DNA of 64,000 nt from contig NZ_CP042913.1 of NCBI RefSeq assembly GCF_008065115.1, forward strand, positions 2,206,338 to 2,270,337, given 5' to 3'. The notes beneath the pieces are model-generated. The model was not told the DNA's origin. It searched no databases and saw nothing but the letters and a program-made list of their open reading frames with translations. This document shows, in pieces, positions 27,790-49,057 of this stretch. The position numbers and the translations under genes are program-made. This DNA comes from Bythopirellula goksoeyrii. GTDB lineage: Bacteria > Planctomycetota > Planctomycetia > Pirellulales > Lacipirellulaceae. Position 1 is the stretch's first letter. The number at the start of each line of letters is the position of its first letter.

Positions 27790-27862
27790 GCCCCCGTAGC
27801 TCAGGGGATAGAGCGACGGTTTCCTAAACCGCAGGTCGCAGGTTCGAATCCTGCCGGGGGTA
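27790..27862 (+). tRNA. tRNA-Arg (anticodon CCU)
   Basis: A 73-base cloverleaf: acceptor GCCCCCG with CGGGGGT and discriminator A; D-arm GCTC/GAGC with AGGGGATA loop; anticodon arm (C)GGT-TTCCTAA-ACC(G), giving anticodon CCT that reads AGG; T-arm GCAGG-TTCGAAT-CCTGC. The 27-43 pair is A/C, a mismatch. CCA is not encoded. Confidence 0.95.
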
Positions 27863-42465: not shown

Positions 42466-42469
42466 CTAC
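42401..42469. repeat. REPIN-like inverted repeat pair
   Basis: Arms 42401-42423 and 42447-42469 are complementary over 23 bases with two mismatches (cores GTAGGGTGGGCA and TGCCCACCCTAC); each arm is itself a short hairpin (GTGGGCA-CGCCCAC type). The stop codon of paralogue 2 (42466-42468) lies inside the right arm. Confidence 0.75.
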
Positions 42470-44166
42470 TTGCTGTGCCGTCGGGGAATAAGTGCGGAAA
42501 GGCAGAGGGCGAGGAGCGCTGCTGTAGTGGGCTCGGGGATGGCGACGCGGTTGGAGACGAAGATGCCTTCTGTGCCATCAGTGAAGGTAGCTCTGAAGGC
42601 GAGCTGTCCGTGGTCGTTGAAGCTTGACGCGCGCCCATCTTCGTTTCCGGTCTTGTTAAGGACGCTTAGCAGGGAGATCGTTCTCAGATCGTCAATCAGT
42701 GGGTCGTCGTTGACATCGATGAGATCTCCTTCGCGCACAATCTCGATGAGCAAGCCGTCGCGCGTTGTGGCGTAGATGCCAAGGTCATTAGCAAAGCTCA
42801 CACCCGAGCCGGAAAGGTACGCACTGAAAGCGGTCTGTCCCGCACCGTTTAGTACAAGGGAGCCTAAATCAAAATGACTGAACGTCACTCCGGGATTGGC
42901 ACCGGGAACTTGGTTGTCCTCGCGGGCCACTTCGGCGAGCGTGCCACTCCCTTCGCTATAAATGGCCTCGTTGAAAAAGACTCCCGGACCTCTGATGCGA
43001 CCCTGGAACGCAGTCTGTCCTGTAGAGTTGATTACAGGGTCAGAAAAAAAGCTGGAGAACACGACACCGGGACTCGCGCCAGGTGCCGGATTGCCTGCAC
43101 GGGCCACTTCTGTCAAAGGGCCTCTGCCCTCACTGTAAATGCCAGTGTTGCTTAATCCGTTCACGCCCGGGCCAGTGAGGACGCCGAAGAAAGCAGTTTG
43201 CCCCGCGGCATTGAGCACGGGCACGCTGCTGATCCCGAGGTTGCTGTTGAAGCCGCTGAACACGACGCCGGGGTCGGCACCGGGGGCTTGATTGCCCTCT
43301 CTTATAACCTCGGTCAGCGGAACGCCCTCATTTTTATAGATGGCGGAGTCGGTATTTGAATTCACGCCCGGGCCGGCAAGTACGCCAATGAACACAGTTT
43401 GGCCCGTGGCGTTCAGCAAGGGGAGTTCGAAGCTGCTGAAGAAGATGCCGGGATCGGCTCCGTGGGCTTGATCGCCGGCGCGTGCCACCTCGGCCAGGGA
43501 GCCGTTTCCACCGCTGTAGATACCGATGCCATTTGTCGAGTTCACTCCCATGCCAGTGAGAGTTCCGCTGAATGCAGTGTGCCCCGAGGTGTTAAGCACG
43601 GAGAGGTTGAGAAAGCTGAGGCCGCTAAAGACAGAACCAGGGTCGGCACCCGGGGCTTGGTTGCCTGCACGGGCCACTTCGAAAAGTGAGTGACCTCCCT
43701 CGATGTAAATCCCGATCCCATTCGTCGAGCTTACACCAGGACCCGCTAGAAAGCTACCAAACGCGGTTTGCCCCGCAGCACTTAAGACGGGGGATCGCAG
43801 GCCGCTGAACACAACACCAGAGTCCGCGCCAGGAGCTTGGTCGCCCTTGCGAGCGACTTCGGCTAGAGTGCCTTTCCCCTCACTGTAGATGCCATCGTCG
43901 TTCGTCGAGTTCACGCCTGGGCCGGTGAGTTGCCCAAAGAATGCAGTCTGACCCATAGCGTCGATCATGGGAGGAACGCCTGCACCTATGCCGAAGCTTG
44001 GGAAGCTGCTAAACACGACCCCGGGGTCAGCGCCGGGGGCTTGGTCGCCGGTGAGGACGACGGTTCGCAGGTCGCCGTCGGCTTGGGCGATCGGGGTCAG
44101 ACATAGCGAACAAGCCATGGTGACCGTTATAGAATATGTTCTGCTTGAAAGTGAACTGAAGAGCAT
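42466..44166 (-). CDS. Exported 60-residue-repeat protein with PEP-CTERM anchor (paralogue 2)
   Basis: 566 residues from ATG 44166, chosen because AAAGAGGAGATTTGGC precedes it and the signal peptide then aligns with that of paralogue 1 (both run into AQADGDLRTV-LTGDQ/HQ); the frame is open 40 codons further up. It has seven repeats of about 60 residues of the same type and the same divergent eighth, but goes directly from GIFVSNRVAIPEP to the anchor TTAALLALCLSALIP with RRHSK: the dockerin-like module of paralogue 1 is absent. The last codons and stop lie in a REPIN-like element. Function unknown; cell-surface location is inferred from the sorting signal. Confidence 0.82.
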   Translation of the reverse strand: MLFSSLSSRTYSITVTMACSLCLTPIAQADGDLRTVVLTGDQAPGADPGVVFSSFPSFGIGAGVPPMIDAMGQTAFFGQLTGPGVNSTNDDGIYSEGKGTLAEVARKGDQAPGADSGVVFSGLRSPVLSAAGQTAFGSFLAGPGVSSTNGIGIYIEGGHSLFEVARAGNQAPGADPGSVFSGLSFLNLSVLNTSGHTAFSGTLTGMGVNSTNGIGIYSGGNGSLAEVARAGDQAHGADPGIFFSSFELPLLNATGQTVFIGVLAGPGVNSNTDSAIYKNEGVPLTEVIREGNQAPGADPGVVFSGFNSNLGISSVPVLNAAGQTAFFGVLTGPGVNGLSNTGIYSEGRGPLTEVARAGNPAPGASPGVVFSSFFSDPVINSTGQTAFQGRIRGPGVFFNEAIYSEGSGTLAEVAREDNQVPGANPGVTFSHFDLGSLVLNGAGQTAFSAYLSGSGVSFANDLGIYATTRDGLLIEIVREGDLIDVNDDPLIDDLRTISLLSVLNKTGNEDGRASSFNDHGQLAFRATFTDGTEGIFVSNRVAIPEPTTAALLALCLSALIPRRHSK

Positions 44167-44443
44167 GCCAAATCTCCTCTTTGATGTTTCCGCATGGTGG
44201 AGCGGGCAAATCAGTGCGAACGCATGGTAGCTATTGTAACCGATGCGGTTTAGCCTCGTACCTGGCGTTGGGTAGTTTTTCGGCATTTTTTTCGTGCCTT
44301 CAAAGAAAGTCGAGAGCTTAGGGTCAAGAGTCTAGAGCCGAAGCAGTGGGTATGAGATTTTTTTGAATTTTTGGGTCATTTTGAGATCAACTCATCGACT
44401 ATCTTCTTGTTGATACCAATTCATTCTTCCGAAGGAGAGTCCC

Positions 44444-44950
44444 GTGGCGAGTGAAACCCAGCCCGATTGGGCCTGTTTGGTCGATAAACACGCTGAACGG
44501 GTATTCAGGATTGCCTATAGAATTCTCGGTTCCGTTCAAGATGCCGAGGATGTTTCGCAAAATGTCTTCAGTGAGGCGGTCAAACTGCATGCGGCGGGGC
44601 CCATCCAAAGTTGGCTTGGACTGTTTGTGCGTCTTGCTTCATTGAGGGCTTTGGACATGCGGCGAAGTCGCCGGAGTGTGCTGCAACTGATCGAAAGCGA
44701 TCGGGCCACCCAGAGCGGGCCTGCCGAGGAGGCCATTGGTGCTGAGCTCGCCGTCTGGCTCCGCGAAGCAACTAGTCGCTTGCCGGATCAACAGGCAGCC
44801 GTGTTTTCATTGACTTACTATGAACATCTCGATCGAGGCACTATTGCCGAGGTCTTAGAGATTGAACCCGAGGCTGTTTCGACATGCCTCTACAAGGCAC
44901 GCAAACGGCTAAGATCTGAACTGCAAGTCTTAGATGGAGGAACAGAATAA
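44444..44950 (+). CDS. ECF-type RNA polymerase sigma factor
   Basis: 168 residues, GTG start at 44444 behind GAAGGAGAG. Region 2: HAERVFRIAYRILGSVQDAEDVSQNVF; region 4: LPDQQAAVFSLTYYEHLDRGTIAEVLEIEPEAVSTCLYKARKRL, quoted only by its ends LPDQQAAVF and YKARKRL. There is no region 1 or 3. The next gene starts at the stop codon (TAATG), so sigma factor and membrane partner are co-translated. The stimulus is unknown. Confidence 0.9.
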   Translation: MASETQPDWACLVDKHAERVFRIAYRILGSVQDAEDVSQNVFSEAVKLHAAGPIQSWLGLFVRLASLRALDMRRSRRSVLQLIESDRATQSGPAEEAIGAELAVWLREATSRLPDQQAAVFSLTYYEHLDRGTIAEVLEIEPEAVSTCLYKARKRLRSELQVLDGGTE

Positions 44951-46143
44951 TGTCTGAAAATATCCCTGCAAATGATTCAGCTCTCGACTTGGATCCAGAA
45001 CTGCAAGCGGCCGTGTCAGCGGTTCTTTCCGAGCCGATTGACCTCGCTGCGATCGAGCGGATCAAAGCAAAAGCGAAACAGCTTTCGCCTCGTTCTGAAA
45101 GACGACGAACTGCATCGGAATCGAGTTCTTCGCGGCGTACCTGGGTTTCAATGGCGTTGGCCGCCAGCTTGTTATTGGCGATCGGTATTGCCGTGCTCTC
45201 GCCCTCGACGAACTCTGCGTTTGGCCAGGTCATGAAACAGCTTCGCGAAGCTGGTGCGTTTCGCTATGTTTATCTGCTTTACATGGACGATTCGGAGCAA
45301 CCCATCGAGAGCACCGTGATGGTGGCTGAGAACGGGCGGCAGCGTCACGAATTGTTGCAAACGGTTTCGATCTCAGATGCCTTTGGAGTTCCGCGTTTGA
45401 CACTGCTAACGGATACACAAACGGCAATTGTTCCTACTCCTGTGGAGCGTAAGAATCCTCCGACCAATGAAACTATTCTGGATTGGTTTGAAAAGTTACG
45501 TAACCATTCAGGCAAGCCGGAGCGGCGTTTGGATCGTAAGGAACTCGACGGTCGTACTGTTGATGGCTTTGTAGCCAAGGTTCAGCATCAGGAATATGTC
45601 TTGTGGATCGACGTGGCAACGAACGAACTGGTTCAAATCGAGTTCGGACCCTTGGTTAAGGGGACAAAGATCCGGCAGATCGTAATGAAAGACTTCCAAT
45701 TCAACCAGGAGTTTGAACAATCACTTTTCAGTCTGGAGGTTCCTCCTGGGTATCGCATCCAGAAACTGAAAAGCATCACAGAAGCCACGGGTGGCGAACA
45801 AAGTATCATCTCTGCTTTGAAAGGTTATCTCAAACTCTCAGAAGGTAAATTTCCTGATAGCATCACTGATTGGGGGGAATGGGCAGTCTTGTTTTCACGG
45901 GATGGAGAGTTGTCGGACGAGGACACCCAAGTGATGGGACATTTAGGCGCTATCACACCATTCCTGGTAACCAAGTCGTCCACCGACTACGAATATCTTG
46001 GCAAGGGAAAAACGACCGATGGCCAGCCCTCGATCGTATTCTGGTGGCGCAATGAGGAAGGGATCATTCGAGCAATCAATTCCGATCTCACGGTGACTGA
46101 GGTTGAGGAAGGAGATCTTCCTCAGAGTAACGAGACCCCGTAA
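44950..46143 (+). CDS. Membrane-anchored anti-sigma-type regulator with LolA-like periplasmic domain
   Basis: 397 residues. A cytoplasmic N-terminus of about 65 residues with an LDPELQAAVSAVL-IDLAAIERIK helix region, one membrane helix (WVSMALAASLLLAIGIAVL), and a periplasmic part. That part begins SAFGQVMKQLREAGAFRYVYLL, then has DRKELDGRTVDGFVAK, YVLWIDVATNELVQIEF and FSLEVPPGYRI, the pattern of LolA/LppX-like outer-membrane lipoprotein carrier folds seen in sigma-partner proteins of planctomycetes. A zinc anti-sigma motif (HxxxCxxC) is not present. Control of the preceding ECF factor is inferred from the TAATG overlap and layout. Confidence 0.72.
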   Translation: MSENIPANDSALDLDPELQAAVSAVLSEPIDLAAIERIKAKAKQLSPRSERRRTASESSSSRRTWVSMALAASLLLAIGIAVLSPSTNSAFGQVMKQLREAGAFRYVYLLYMDDSEQPIESTVMVAENGRQRHELLQTVSISDAFGVPRLTLLTDTQTAIVPTPVERKNPPTNETILDWFEKLRNHSGKPERRLDRKELDGRTVDGFVAKVQHQEYVLWIDVATNELVQIEFGPLVKGTKIRQIVMKDFQFNQEFEQSLFSLEVPPGYRIQKLKSITEATGGEQSIISALKGYLKLSEGKFPDSITDWGEWAVLFSRDGELSDEDTQVMGHLGAITPFLVTKSSTDYEYLGKGKTTDGQPSIVFWWRNEEGIIRAINSDLTVTEVEEGDLPQSNETP

Positions 46144-46222: not shown

Positions 46223-47371
46223 TCAGCGTACGGATTCAAACGCTTGCTGCAGATCAGCTTGGAGATCGTCAAGAGCCTCCAGGCCAACCGAGAGGCGGAT
46301 CAGGCCGTCGGTGATCCCGTGTTTGGCTCGGTCAGCAGCATCATAGCTGGCGTGGGACATGGAAGCGGGTTGTTCGATGAGCGATTCTACGGCGCCCAGG
46401 CTGACGGCCAGTTGGAAGAGCTTGGTTGCTTGGACGAACTCTTTGGTTTGCTCGAAGTTGCCTTTGAGTTCAAAGGTGAGCATTCCGCCGAAGCCACTGT
46501 CCATTTGTTTTTTAGCAATCTCGTGGCCGGGATGCTCGGGTAATCCGGGGTAGAGCACACGATTGACCTGCGGATGGGAATCGAGCCACTCGGCCAGGGC
46601 GAGGGCGGTGCGGCTCTGCTCGCGGACTCGCAACTCCAAAGTCTTCAAACCGCGCGAACACAAGAAGCATTCGAGTGGTCCCATAATGGCCCCGGTGGCG
46701 TTCTGCACAAAGTATAATTCGTCGCGAAGGGCTTGGTCGCGCATCACCAGCGCGCCACCCATGAGATCGCTGTGTCCGCCGAGGTATTTGGTTGCCGAGT
46801 GCATCACGATATCGGCCCCCAATTCCAGTGGTCGCGAAAGCACGGGTGTGGCAAACGTGCTGTCGACGCCCAATAGTGCTCCGTGCTCATGGGCGATCTC
46901 GGCACAGGCGGCAATATCGGTGATCGACATTCGCGGGTTGCCGGGGGTCTCGATCCAGACGAGTTTCGTCTTCTCAGTAAAGGCCTGCTGGAGATTCTCC
47001 GGATTGGTGGTGTCGACCAAAGTGATGGTGATGCCCGCTCGATTGGCTACTTTGTGAAACAGGCGATAGCTGCCACCGTAGATATCGCTGCCGGCGACAA
47101 TATGATCCCCCGAGCGGAGCATGGCTGTGACACAGTGGGTAGCGGCCATGCCACTGGCAAAGGCGAGTGCGCCGCTGCCAGCTTCGAGTGAGGCAAGCGT
47201 AGCTTCCAATGCTTTACGGGTAGGATTTCCACTCCGCGAGTAGTCGAACTCGCCCCATTCGCCCGCGCCAGGTTGCACAAACGTGGAAGCGACATGGATT
47301 GGCGGCACCACAGCCCCTGTCGTAGGACAGCGTTCATTGCCAACATGGATAGCCCGAGTTCGGAATTGCAT
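46223..47371 (-). CDS. Cys/Met-metabolism PLP enzyme (cystathionine gamma-lyase/synthase type)
   Basis: 382 residues, fold-type I PLP enzyme. Seen: DYSRSGNPTRKALE (Tyr and Arg that bind the phosphate of the neighbouring subunit's PLP), ALAFASGMAA, GSDIYGGSYRLF, ETPGNPRM, LGVDSTFATP, PLP lysine Lys195 in SATKYLGGHSD, and EQPASMSHA at the end. It may use cystathionine (gamma-lyase) or an O-acylhomoserine (gamma-synthase or sulfhydrylase); sequence alone does not settle this. It lies 170 bp downstream of a second enzyme of the same family, separated by a family A repeat. Confidence 0.85.
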   Translation of the reverse strand: MQFRTRAIHVGNERCPTTGAVVPPIHVASTFVQPGAGEWGEFDYSRSGNPTRKALEATLASLEAGSGALAFASGMAATHCVTAMLRSGDHIVAGSDIYGGSYRLFHKVANRAGITITLVDTTNPENLQQAFTEKTKLVWIETPGNPRMSITDIAACAEIAHEHGALLGVDSTFATPVLSRPLELGADIVMHSATKYLGGHSDLMGGALVMRDQALRDELYFVQNATGAIMGPLECFLCSRGLKTLELRVREQSRTALALAEWLDSHPQVNRVLYPGLPEHPGHEIAKKQMDSGFGGMLTFELKGNFEQTKEFVQATKLFQLAVSLGAVESLIEQPASMSHASYDAADRAKHGITDGLIRLSVGLEALDDLQADLQQAFESVR

Positions 47372-47541: not shown

Positions 47542-48792
47542 TCAACTCCTCAGCGCTTGCTCTAGGTCTGCGATCAGATCTTCGCTGTTCTCGATGCCGC
47601 AGGAGAGCCGGATCATATTGTCGGGGATGCCATATTCGCGGCGTTCTTCGGGGGTGCATTGGTAGTAGCTCATCACTAAGGGTTGTTCGATGAGCGATTC
47701 GACGCCACCCAGGCTTGGTGCAATTCGCGGAATCTTTACCGCGTCGACGATGTTGGCCGTCTCACGCCAGTCAGCATCCTTTACAAAGAAAGTAATCAGT
47801 CCACCGAAACCGCGCATCGTTTCTTGAGCGATTTCATGATACGGATGCGAGGCCAAACCAGGATACAATACCCGCTCGATGCGAGGATGATTCTCCAAAA
47901 ACTCGGCAACACGCTGACCATTCTCATTGTGCCGCTGCATACGGAGCTCAAAGGTCTTTAAGCCTCGTGAAAGGAGGTATACGTTTTGGGGACCATTGAC
48001 GGCTCCCATGATCCCGCGGAGCTTGCGTACGGGTTCCAGCTTGTCCTTCTTGCCCATGATAGCACCAGCCAGCAGATCGTTGTGCCCACCCAGATACTTC
48101 GTCGCGGAGTGGAGCACGTAGTCGATCCCGGCTGAGATTGGACGCAAGTTGTAAGGCGTTGCCAAGGTGGCATCGATGAGTGTTTCGACTCCGTATTCCT
48201 TTCCAATCTGCGCAAACCGTTCCAAGTCGACGCAGCTCATGTGCGGATTGGTTGGTGACTCGCTTACCAAGAGCTTTGTGTGTGGATTGATGGCTGCTTC
48301 CATCGCTTCATAATCGCAGGCACGAACCTGCCGCGTCACCACACCAAACCGCGAGAGATGTTTAGTACAAAACTCACGGCTGCGATGGTAACATTCGTCG
48401 AAGAAGATGACTTCATCGCAGGCGCTGAGCTTCGTCATCAAGAGGCCCACAAAGGCTGCCATGCCACTCGAATAGAGTATGGCATCTTCGGCCCCTTCGA
48501 GTGCGGCCAATTTGCGTTCGACGACCCTTTCTCCCGGGTTGCCGTAGCGGCCATATTCCTCACGAGCCTGGTTCTGCTCGATGTAGTTGATCACCGCCTG
48601 CGTATCGGTGAATGTGTAAGTCGAGGCACAAAAAATCGGATCGGTGATCGAGTCCCCCGGCTTTTGCCGCGCTTCGCCGGCGTGGACAGAGAGCGTGGAG
48701 AAATCTTCCCCAAAGCCCTCTGCGGGTTCGCGAGGCGTGTGGTCCGATGTTCCTGCATTCTTCGGAGGATTTGACATTTCAACGTGACTCAT
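47542..48792 (-). CDS. Cystathionine gamma-synthase-type PLP enzyme under SAM-II control
   Basis: 416 residues from ATG 48792. The frame is open to 48942, but that extension runs through the terminator hairpin and is rejected. Motifs: EYGRYGNPGERVVE (PLP phosphate contacts), ILYSSGMAA, SESPTNPHM, LIDATLATPYN, PLP lysine Lys232 in SATKYLGGHND and GGVESLIEQP. The enzyme would join cysteine (or sulfide) to an activated homoserine in methionine synthesis. The riboswitch, which senses S-adenosylmethionine in known members, and the terminator in its leader support a biosynthetic role, i.e. MetB/MetZ rather than a lyase. Confidence 0.88.
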   Translation of the reverse strand: MSHVEMSNPPKNAGTSDHTPREPAEGFGEDFSTLSVHAGEARQKPGDSITDPIFCASTYTFTDTQAVINYIEQNQAREEYGRYGNPGERVVERKLAALEGAEDAILYSSGMAAFVGLLMTKLSACDEVIFFDECYHRSREFCTKHLSRFGVVTRQVRACDYEAMEAAINPHTKLLVSESPTNPHMSCVDLERFAQIGKEYGVETLIDATLATPYNLRPISAGIDYVLHSATKYLGGHNDLLAGAIMGKKDKLEPVRKLRGIMGAVNGPQNVYLLSRGLKTFELRMQRHNENGQRVAEFLENHPRIERVLYPGLASHPYHEIAQETMRGFGGLITFFVKDADWRETANIVDAVKIPRIAPSLGGVESLIEQPLVMSYYQCTPEERREYGIPDNMIRLSCGIENSEDLIADLEQALRS

Positions 48793-48856: not shown

Positions 48857-48894
48857 ATAAAAAAAGCCGCACATACTCTCGGTAAATGCGGCTT
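48857..48894 (-). terminator. Intrinsic terminator in the leader of the cystathionine synthase gene
   Basis: On the minus strand: AAGCCGCA, a 15-base loop, TGCGGCTT, then a U-tract (stem 48864-48871 with 48887-48894; run of A on the plus strand at 48859-48865). It lies 65 bp upstream of the start codon and 84 bases downstream of the SAM-II aptamer, as expected for a transcription-attenuating riboswitch. A second hairpin (GCAAGC ... GCTTGC) lies between them and could act as part of the expression platform. Confidence 0.82.
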
Positions 48895-48977
48895 GATACA
48901 AGCAAGCTTCGTTAGGTTGTTGCTGCTTGCATTAAGTCTCAATAACTGAGAATACGCGCCAGCAGGCTAATGTCACT

Positions 48978-49020
48978 GGCTCTTTAGCAGTTTCGGCTGC
49001 AAGCGGCCACAAATCCCGAG
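48978..49020 (-). promoter_or_regulatory. SAM-II riboswitch aptamer
   Basis: On the minus strand the leader begins TCGG, GATTTG, GGCC, GCTTGCAG, CCGA, AACTGC, TAAAGAGCC. This matches the SAM-II (metA motif) pattern in order and spacing: P1 by TCGG with CCGA; the conserved GAUUUG of loop 1; the conserved CUUGCAG; and a downstream GCUAAAG. The two pseudoknot helices can form (GCAG with CTGC; GGC with GCC). Known SAM-II RNAs turn off methionine-pathway genes when S-adenosylmethionine is high. A good promoter ends two bases before it and a terminator follows. Confidence 0.85.
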
Positions 49021-49028
49021 TTGCCTTA

Positions 49029-49057
49029 AGTTTACGTCTAGACGCACCTGATTGCAA
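49029..49057 (-). promoter_or_regulatory. Sigma-70-type promoter of the SAM-II leader
   Basis: On the minus strand: -35 TTGCAA (49057-49052), 17-base spacer, -10 TAAACT (49034-49029). The predicted start, about 49022, is just before the first base of the aptamer, which fits a riboswitch transcript closely. Confidence 0.65.

Follow-up and report, generated by a model that had tools for sequence, protein, structure and literature searches.

The leader of the cystathionine gamma-synthase (CGS) gene in Bythopirellula goksoeyrii is very likely a SAM-sensing transcriptional OFF switch, built on a compact aptamer related to SAM-II and controlling CGS. It lies on the minus strand of the window, the whole 64,000-nucleotide stretch of contig NZ_CP042913.1 that was analysed and from whose first base positions are counted. 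Sequence comparison indicates that the element is very probably a compact SAM-II-kind variant with SAM-II-like function, widespread in the Pirellulales. It falls outside the Rfam families RF00521 (SAM-II) and RF01726 (SAM-II long loop) by their cut-offs, and it is not SAM-V (RF01826). The parts of the leader, followed by the two genes behind it, are as follows.

49052..49057, minus strand: -35-like box TTGCAA, seen in the sequence, T peaking at -42/-41 in the set of 72 copies
49029..49034, minus strand: -10-like box TAAACT after a 17-base spacer, with an A/T-rich stretch from -19 to -13 across 72 copies
48978..49019, minus strand: compact SAM-II-type aptamer of 42 nt from P1 to P2a, from the alignment of 72 copies and a score of 73.3 bits with R1, a model whose training set includes this copy
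49016..49019, minus strand: P1 5' strand UCGG, partner of 48996-48993, with covariation at the third pair
49010..49015, minus strand: L1 GAUUUG, which by homology supplies the third strand of the SAM triplex and matches the RF00521 consensus exactly
49006..49010, minus strand: GYGGC switching segment, formed by the end of L1 and the P2a 5' strand, with the terminator 5' arm as alternative partner
48997..49003, minus strand: CUUGCAG, P2b 5' strand, of which CUUGCA is fixed by the search pattern and the last G is kept in at least 90% of 72 copies
48993..48996, minus strand: P1 3' strand CCGA, seen in the sequence, with covariation at the third pair
48978..48990, minus strand: CUGCUAAAG (48990-48982) followed by AGCC, comprising the P2b 3' strand and the P2a 3' strand GCC
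48864..48894, minus strand: intrinsic terminator hairpin with 5' arm AAGCCGC, -15.7 kcal/mol
48859..48865, minus strand: U tract of 7 T, from the sequence and terminator calling
47542..48792, minus strand: CGS gene, plant-type, 416 aa, with ATG at 48792, from Cys_Met_Meta_PP and a PDB match
46223..47371, minus strand: gene for a second PLP enzyme, cystathionine gamma/beta-lyase-like by sequence comparison

The leader reads TTGCAA-17-TAAACT, then UCGG GAUUUG U GGCCGC UUGCAG CCGA AA CUGC U AAAG A GCC, and about 85 bases after the aptamer come the hairpin AAGCCGCAUUUACCGAGAGUAUGUGCGGCUU, seven U in all and then the ATG at 48792 (minus). The original prediction had listed P1, GAUUUG, CUUGCAG, GCUAAAG and both pseudoknot pairings as aptamer parts, and all are present on the minus strand where it had put them. 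The terminator that it placed after the aptamer is also there, as a GCCGC...GCGGC hairpin with seven T (48865-48859), as are the boxes of a promoter with a 17-base spacer just before the aptamer. These boxes match 8/12 in the window, below the cut of the mechanical promoter scan, and that scan of the window listed neither the leader promoter (TTGCAA/TAAACT) nor the leader terminator. The promoter is supported at group level by the T peak at -42/-41 and the A/T-rich stretch from -19 to -13, counted relative to GATTTG in 72 copies, and transcription would be expected to start near 49022 (minus). The mechanical scan returned a promoter-like site at 48976-48949, which falls within the leader and was put down to chance.

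The three SAM-II motifs, searched as a gapped pattern, were found in 72/97 genomes (the window's own and 96 relatives), and the reversed control pattern in 1/97. The pattern fixes GATTTG, CTTGCA and GCTAAAG in these first 72 copies, so that their lack of variation carries no weight on its own, and the circular argument from an invariant ligand site was replaced by a gene-anchored count. Of the top 30 CGS loci, retrieved via the protein, the exact three-motif core lies upstream of 28, and the two loci without it have fewer than 100 upstream bases present. The ligand-site motifs GAUUUG, CUUGCA and GCUAAAG are present in the window and in those 28 loci, which keep exactly the motifs containing the residues equivalent to U9, U10, U20, U47, A48 and A50, according to a mapping based on the SAM-V structure study (PMC6061858) and Rfam's SAM_V consensus. 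By the same two sources, L1 GAUUUG is equivalent to the third strand of SAM-V and SAM-II, and the SAM-contacting U and A were placed by homology in the segment of CUGCUAAAG and AGCC (48978..48990, minus).

The 72 copies align nearly gap-free. The informative positions that never vary are GGCCG, GCC, a single C in P1 and the C that precedes UGCUAAAG; at least 90% of the copies also keep the P1 GG and the additional P2b bases. The 3' segment has an invariant leading C and an invariant GCC, a U after the leading C in at least 90% of the 72, and A or U, once C, as the base preceding GCC. R1, our own model built from the 72 copies, finds exactly one copy per genome in 76/97 genomes at E 0.01 or better, a count of copies that, like the others here, includes related genomes. 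The predicted SAM-II-type element in a planctomycete is by this measure widespread in the Pirellulales. No element was found in G047, G048 and G065 (loci L119, L122 and L121), in which the gene and 0.9-1.1 kb upstream are present. In three genomes of one family, G053, G082 and G090, the R1 matches are about 30-43 bases longer than the others (L120 723-814 in G053; G082:C21:71432-71536; G090:C388:3519-3623), and in G053 the extra bases lie in L3, hairpin-like by eye, where SAM-V has P3. A second GATTTG...GCTAAAG match in G063 was taken as chance.

The first helix of the aptamer is short. Contiguous P1 pairs number two in 39, three in 58, four in 44, more in 10 and fewer in 5 of 156 copies, so that P1 is mostly 2-4 bp (141/156); it is 4 bp in the window and only 2 bp in 28 of the 72 aligned copies. 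The third P1 pair is standard in 112/156 (mostly A-U, C-G and U-A), against a mean of 65.4 (sd 5.8, maximum 88) in 2000 shuffles that ignore relatedness, and the fourth and fifth pairs do not clearly exceed their shuffles. P1 contains GG/CC in most copies and, by eye, ACC/GGU in the Oligoflexales copy L192. L3 comprises 2-7 bases in the 72 aligned copies. P2b (UUGCAG/CUGC-U-AA) carries one A-U and one G-C pair more than the RF00521 consensus, and P2a is GGC/GCC. By eye, P2 is complementary in 71/72 copies (L080 departs) and almost never varies, and L192 keeps P2a through a one-base shift. Because they hardly vary, P2a and P2b gain almost no support from covariation, and homology is what argues for them. 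Just after the aptamer GCC and before the terminator, a further hairpin (AUCGC...GCGAU and variants) can be seen by eye in many copies, and is perhaps a spacer bringing the antiterminator strands together.

A strict caller placed a terminator between aptamer and gene in 56/72 copies and in 47/82 usable new copies, the latter being loci L119 upward minus any sharing 20 upstream bases and the motif with the first 72. It called none in 16/72 and 35/82, several of which look like terminators by eye. The 5' arm contains GCCGC in 49/56 leader terminators compared with 10/116 other terminators of the loci, and the same arm recurs in 35/47 terminators of the new copies. With wobble allowed, the terminator 5' arm makes five pairs with the aptamer's own GYGGC in 93/103 leaders, the corresponding complementarity of control terminators being 50/350 (GCGGC) or 61/350 (GTGGC). 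GCCGC itself forms 84 of the 103 arms, and of the 19 others nine pair and ten do not. Eight of the nine pair via C-to-U changes and the ninth, L236, via GCCAC opposite a U-type aptamer; in L111, one of the ten, a GCCAC arm opposite a C-type aptamer makes a mismatch.

When transcripts ending just before the terminator 3' arm were folded, the pairing probability between aptamer and 5' arm exceeded 0.5 in 52/56, part of which reflects plain G+C-richness since grafted control hairpins pair likewise in 264/560. Full-length ligand-free folds favour the terminator in 38/56 leaders and give the window leader a terminator probability of 0.01; the folds, like the terminator caller, ignore the pseudoknot. 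Because GYGGC consists of the end of L1 and a P2a strand, SAM-stabilised folding and antitermination are mutually exclusive on paper. The complete attenuator of the original prediction is upheld, in sequence and in folding, by this combination of a terminator with a mutually exclusive antiterminator. Pairing of the aptamer's GGCCGC with the terminator 3' arm is also possible on paper, and the 5' arm, which is made first, was preferred. Among the 49 GCCGC arms, which were chosen for their leading G, the base opposite that G in the 3' arm is C in 26 cases and T in 23, a weak hint that the 3' arm drifts more than the 5' arm, favouring pairing by the latter.

The proposed mechanism would begin with RNA polymerase initiating a few bases upstream of P1. 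At low SAM the small pseudoknot would open and GYGGC (49010-49006) would pair with GCCGC (48892-48888) of the terminator 5' arm, so that the terminator could not form and the CGS gene would be read, probably with the lyase gene behind it. With ample SAM, the ligand would sit in the GAUUUG.UUGCA/UGC-U-AA triplex, P2b and P2a (GGC/GCC) would be locked and GYGGC would be unavailable, allowing the GCCGC...GCGGC-U7 hairpin to form and transcription to end about 70 bases before the start codon. The double role of GYGGC agrees with the report that SAM-II acts via its distal pseudoknot (PMC2258182), a source according to which the SAM-II transcription mechanism was without experimental proof as of 2007. 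The mechanism likewise agrees with the OFF switch at transcription that was predicted for the metZ SAM-II of S. meliloti, for which in vivo support came in 2022, with no antiterminator mapped in the available text of that study (PMC9373788).

The element was originally named a SAM-II riboswitch, of which the functional SAM-II-type reading stands by comparison and strict Rfam SAM-II membership does not. The covariance-model check with RF00521 gave 18.0 bits at the site, not significant and below its 36-bit cut-off (E 0.067 over 301 bases; genome-wide E 0.34, with another genomic place reaching 17.9 bits). Its alignment matches all conserved motifs there, and the score is low because of a shorter P1 and the absence of about nine loop positions. 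RF00521 was over its cut-off in 0/97 genomes, and the matches listed among them, true site or not, all reach at most 24.3 bits. RF01726 (cut-off 44 bits) had no match listed at the site and was over cut-off in 0/97 genomes, and RF01826 (cut-off 41 bits) gave no match at the site. RF00521 was set aside as a whole-genome detector, as scores of 15-24 bits mix true and false sites and control genomes also match; its matches L002-L004 in the window's own genome lie where an R1 search found nothing. A SAM_V match of 22.3 bits (L036) is located elsewhere in the genome and not at the leader, and served for the SAM_V consensus.

The element shares with SAM-II (RF00521) the motifs GAUUUG, CUUGCA and GCUAAAG, a predicted H-type pseudoknot with P1, P2a and P2b, and a downstream methionine gene. 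A terminator lies downstream, as it most often does in SAM-II of alpha- and beta-proteobacteria (PMC2258182). It differs in having a P1 of mostly 2-4 bp where the RF00521 consensus has six pairs, an L3 of 2-7 bases, a P2b longer by A-U and G-C and a nearly invariant P2a GGC/GCC, and in occurring mainly in Pirellulales. The resemblance to SAM-V comprises the same pseudoknot plan and ligand site, along with P1 and P2 lengths unlike those of SAM-II (PMC6061858, PMC2704228). However, the SAM-V core is AUUGUG...CACUAAAAAGGAG whereas the window core is CUUGCAG...CUGCUAAAG, four bases separate CC from CUGC in the window copy where SAM-V carries P3, and a terminator follows this copy whereas SAM-V is translational.

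A phylum-wide sample held the pattern in 11/392 genomes, comprising 9/12 of the window's order and 2/380 of the rest, so the element is not phylum-wide by pattern; the two matches outside the order have long spacers and were taken as chance. In a contig scan of named species at least 118 stretches match the pattern. Among the matches listed, 111 are labelled Pirellulales or other planctomycetes, with Bythopirellula, Lacipirellula, Blastopirellula, Adhaeretor, Rubripirellula, Botrimarina, Aeoliella, Thermogutta and many MAGs among the labels, and seven are others: the Oligoflexia MAGs L192 and L236, a Candidatus Kutchimonas MAG (L217), the Rickettsiales-labelled L219, and L209, L221 and L238, labelled only 'bacterium'. 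L219 is probably a repeat of another copy, from a mis-binned planctomycete contig, and was not among the seven odd-labelled copies compared. In both Oligoflexia MAGs the compact element comes with a terminator (L236 306-339, minus; L192 3064-3095, plus). By eye, the L236 copy reads into a CGS-like N-terminus; the L192 copy follows ThiF/rhodanese and PALP-family genes (Pfam), and its contig ends after the copy. Either horizontal transfer or shared descent may account for these copies.

The copy in Candidatus Kutchimonas, which we take to be a member of the Gemmatimonadota, links the compact element to recognised families. Found via GATTTGYGGCCGCTTGCA at L217 2009-2070 (minus), it has a five-pair P1 and a long L3, passes RF01726 with 46.7 bits (cut-off 44) and falls just below RF00521 with 34.6 (cut-off 36). 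The 18-base core GATTTGTGGCCGCTTGCA is identical in the window and in L217, and the planctomycete core therefore occurs in a recognised SAM-II aptamer. As to the long-loop family (RF01726), L217, with the core of the window, passes its model, and G053, G082 and G090 have their longer matches, whereas the loops of the compact element are mostly short. The known range of SAM-II comprises alpha-, beta- and gamma-proteobacteria and Bacteroidetes (PMC2258182), and an RF00521 SAM-II from a deep-sea metagenome is placed under Alphaproteobacterium (PMC3101246). The phylum of L217 is absent from these ranges as given in the available text of the papers cited. The literature search returned no report of a planctomycete SAM-II in the article texts within its scope, supplements such as the SAM-II additions of PMC2864571 lying outside it.

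These comparisons bear on two class assignments. The element may, as a tentative proposal short of an even chance, form a separate minimal SAM riboswitch class of about 42 nt, with a P1 of mostly 2-4 bp and a transcript starting at P1, Pirellulales-wide at one copy per genome and also present in Oligoflexia together with a CGS-like gene. The antiterminator would be the third-strand/P2a segment of the SAM pocket itself, so that ligand site and switch share bases, and this double duty would freeze the sequence and hide the element from covariance searches. Alternatively, and as a serious possibility at below-even probability, it is ordinary SAM-II for which the Rfam model is too narrow, the differences in P1, L3 and P2b lying within the class. 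Core motifs identical to the RF00521 consensus argue for this, as does the bridging L217 copy, with its long P1 and the same 18-base core passing RF01726, while the low ceiling of the RF00521 matches listed in 97 genomes, the short P1 and L3 and the additional A-U and G-C pairs of P2b weigh against it.

Gene context supports the predicted control of CGS. A CGS relative, 63-100% identical to the window enzyme, lies directly downstream on the same strand in 147/156 distinct copies listed, its start (equivalent to the window CGS start) at a median of 156 bases after the core. Eight of the nine remaining copies, L236 among them, have at most 305 bases after the motif; after the ninth, L217, comes another methionine gene, for a homocysteine S-methyltransferase carrying an MTHFR domain (Pfam). 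The CGS of the window belongs to the Cys/Met PLP family, with tobacco cystathionine gamma-synthase as its best PDB match (353 bits, next 287). The gene after it is cystathionine lyase-like (46223..47371, minus) and is probably in the same operon, and a second, more distant relative adjoins CGS in many related genomes. A profile search did not find MetA (PF04204) in the genome, and MetX is represented by only a 20.8-bit trace against a cut-off of 500, below which the controls likewise fall. The CGS substrate may be O-phosphohomoserine, as in plants.

This context also bears on the improbable reading that a SAM-II-like aptamer here binds another ligand, such as S-adenosylhomocysteine, methionine or a polyamine. 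SAM-I variants that have come to sense spermidine are on record (PMC10853860), but their SAM-contacting residues are changed, whereas the SAM-II motifs are unaltered in all 28 gene-anchored copies and a methionine-synthesis gene follows in 147/156 copies. Near-perfect sequence conservation with little P2 covariation could also mark the site of an RNA- or DNA-binding repressor protein and no riboswitch, a reading made very unlikely by the SAM-II core motif match, the covariation in P1, a location that the predicted transcript would include and the complementarity with the arm of the terminator. An effect of SAM at translation, as in metX SAM-II and SAM-V, is established for some SAM-II members and has been suggested for SAM-V (PMC6061858), but it is hardly to be expected in a leader where a terminator stands between the ATG and an aptamer that ends about 185 bases upstream of it (the median over 147 copies being 156 bases).

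Several other features were noted in the window. A tRNA at 27790-27862 (plus, 66.6 bits) is its sole Rfam match over cut-off. A DUF7453-family repeat protein with, by eye, a PEP-CTERM-like tail is encoded at 42466-44286 (minus). The region 44444-46143 (plus) holds an ORF for a sigma-70-type factor (Pfam; regions 2 and 4, ECF-like), and the ORF directly after it has no Pfam match and one membrane span by eye, and is perhaps an anti-sigma partner.

The SAM-sensing OFF switch proposed here would extend the range of SAM-II to a system that is widespread in a planctomycete order and was missed by the Rfam models. Its combination of a short-P1 aptamer with terminator-arm complementarity would make the SAM-II transcription mechanism directly testable, and the element may provide a means of reading methionine control in Pirellulales.
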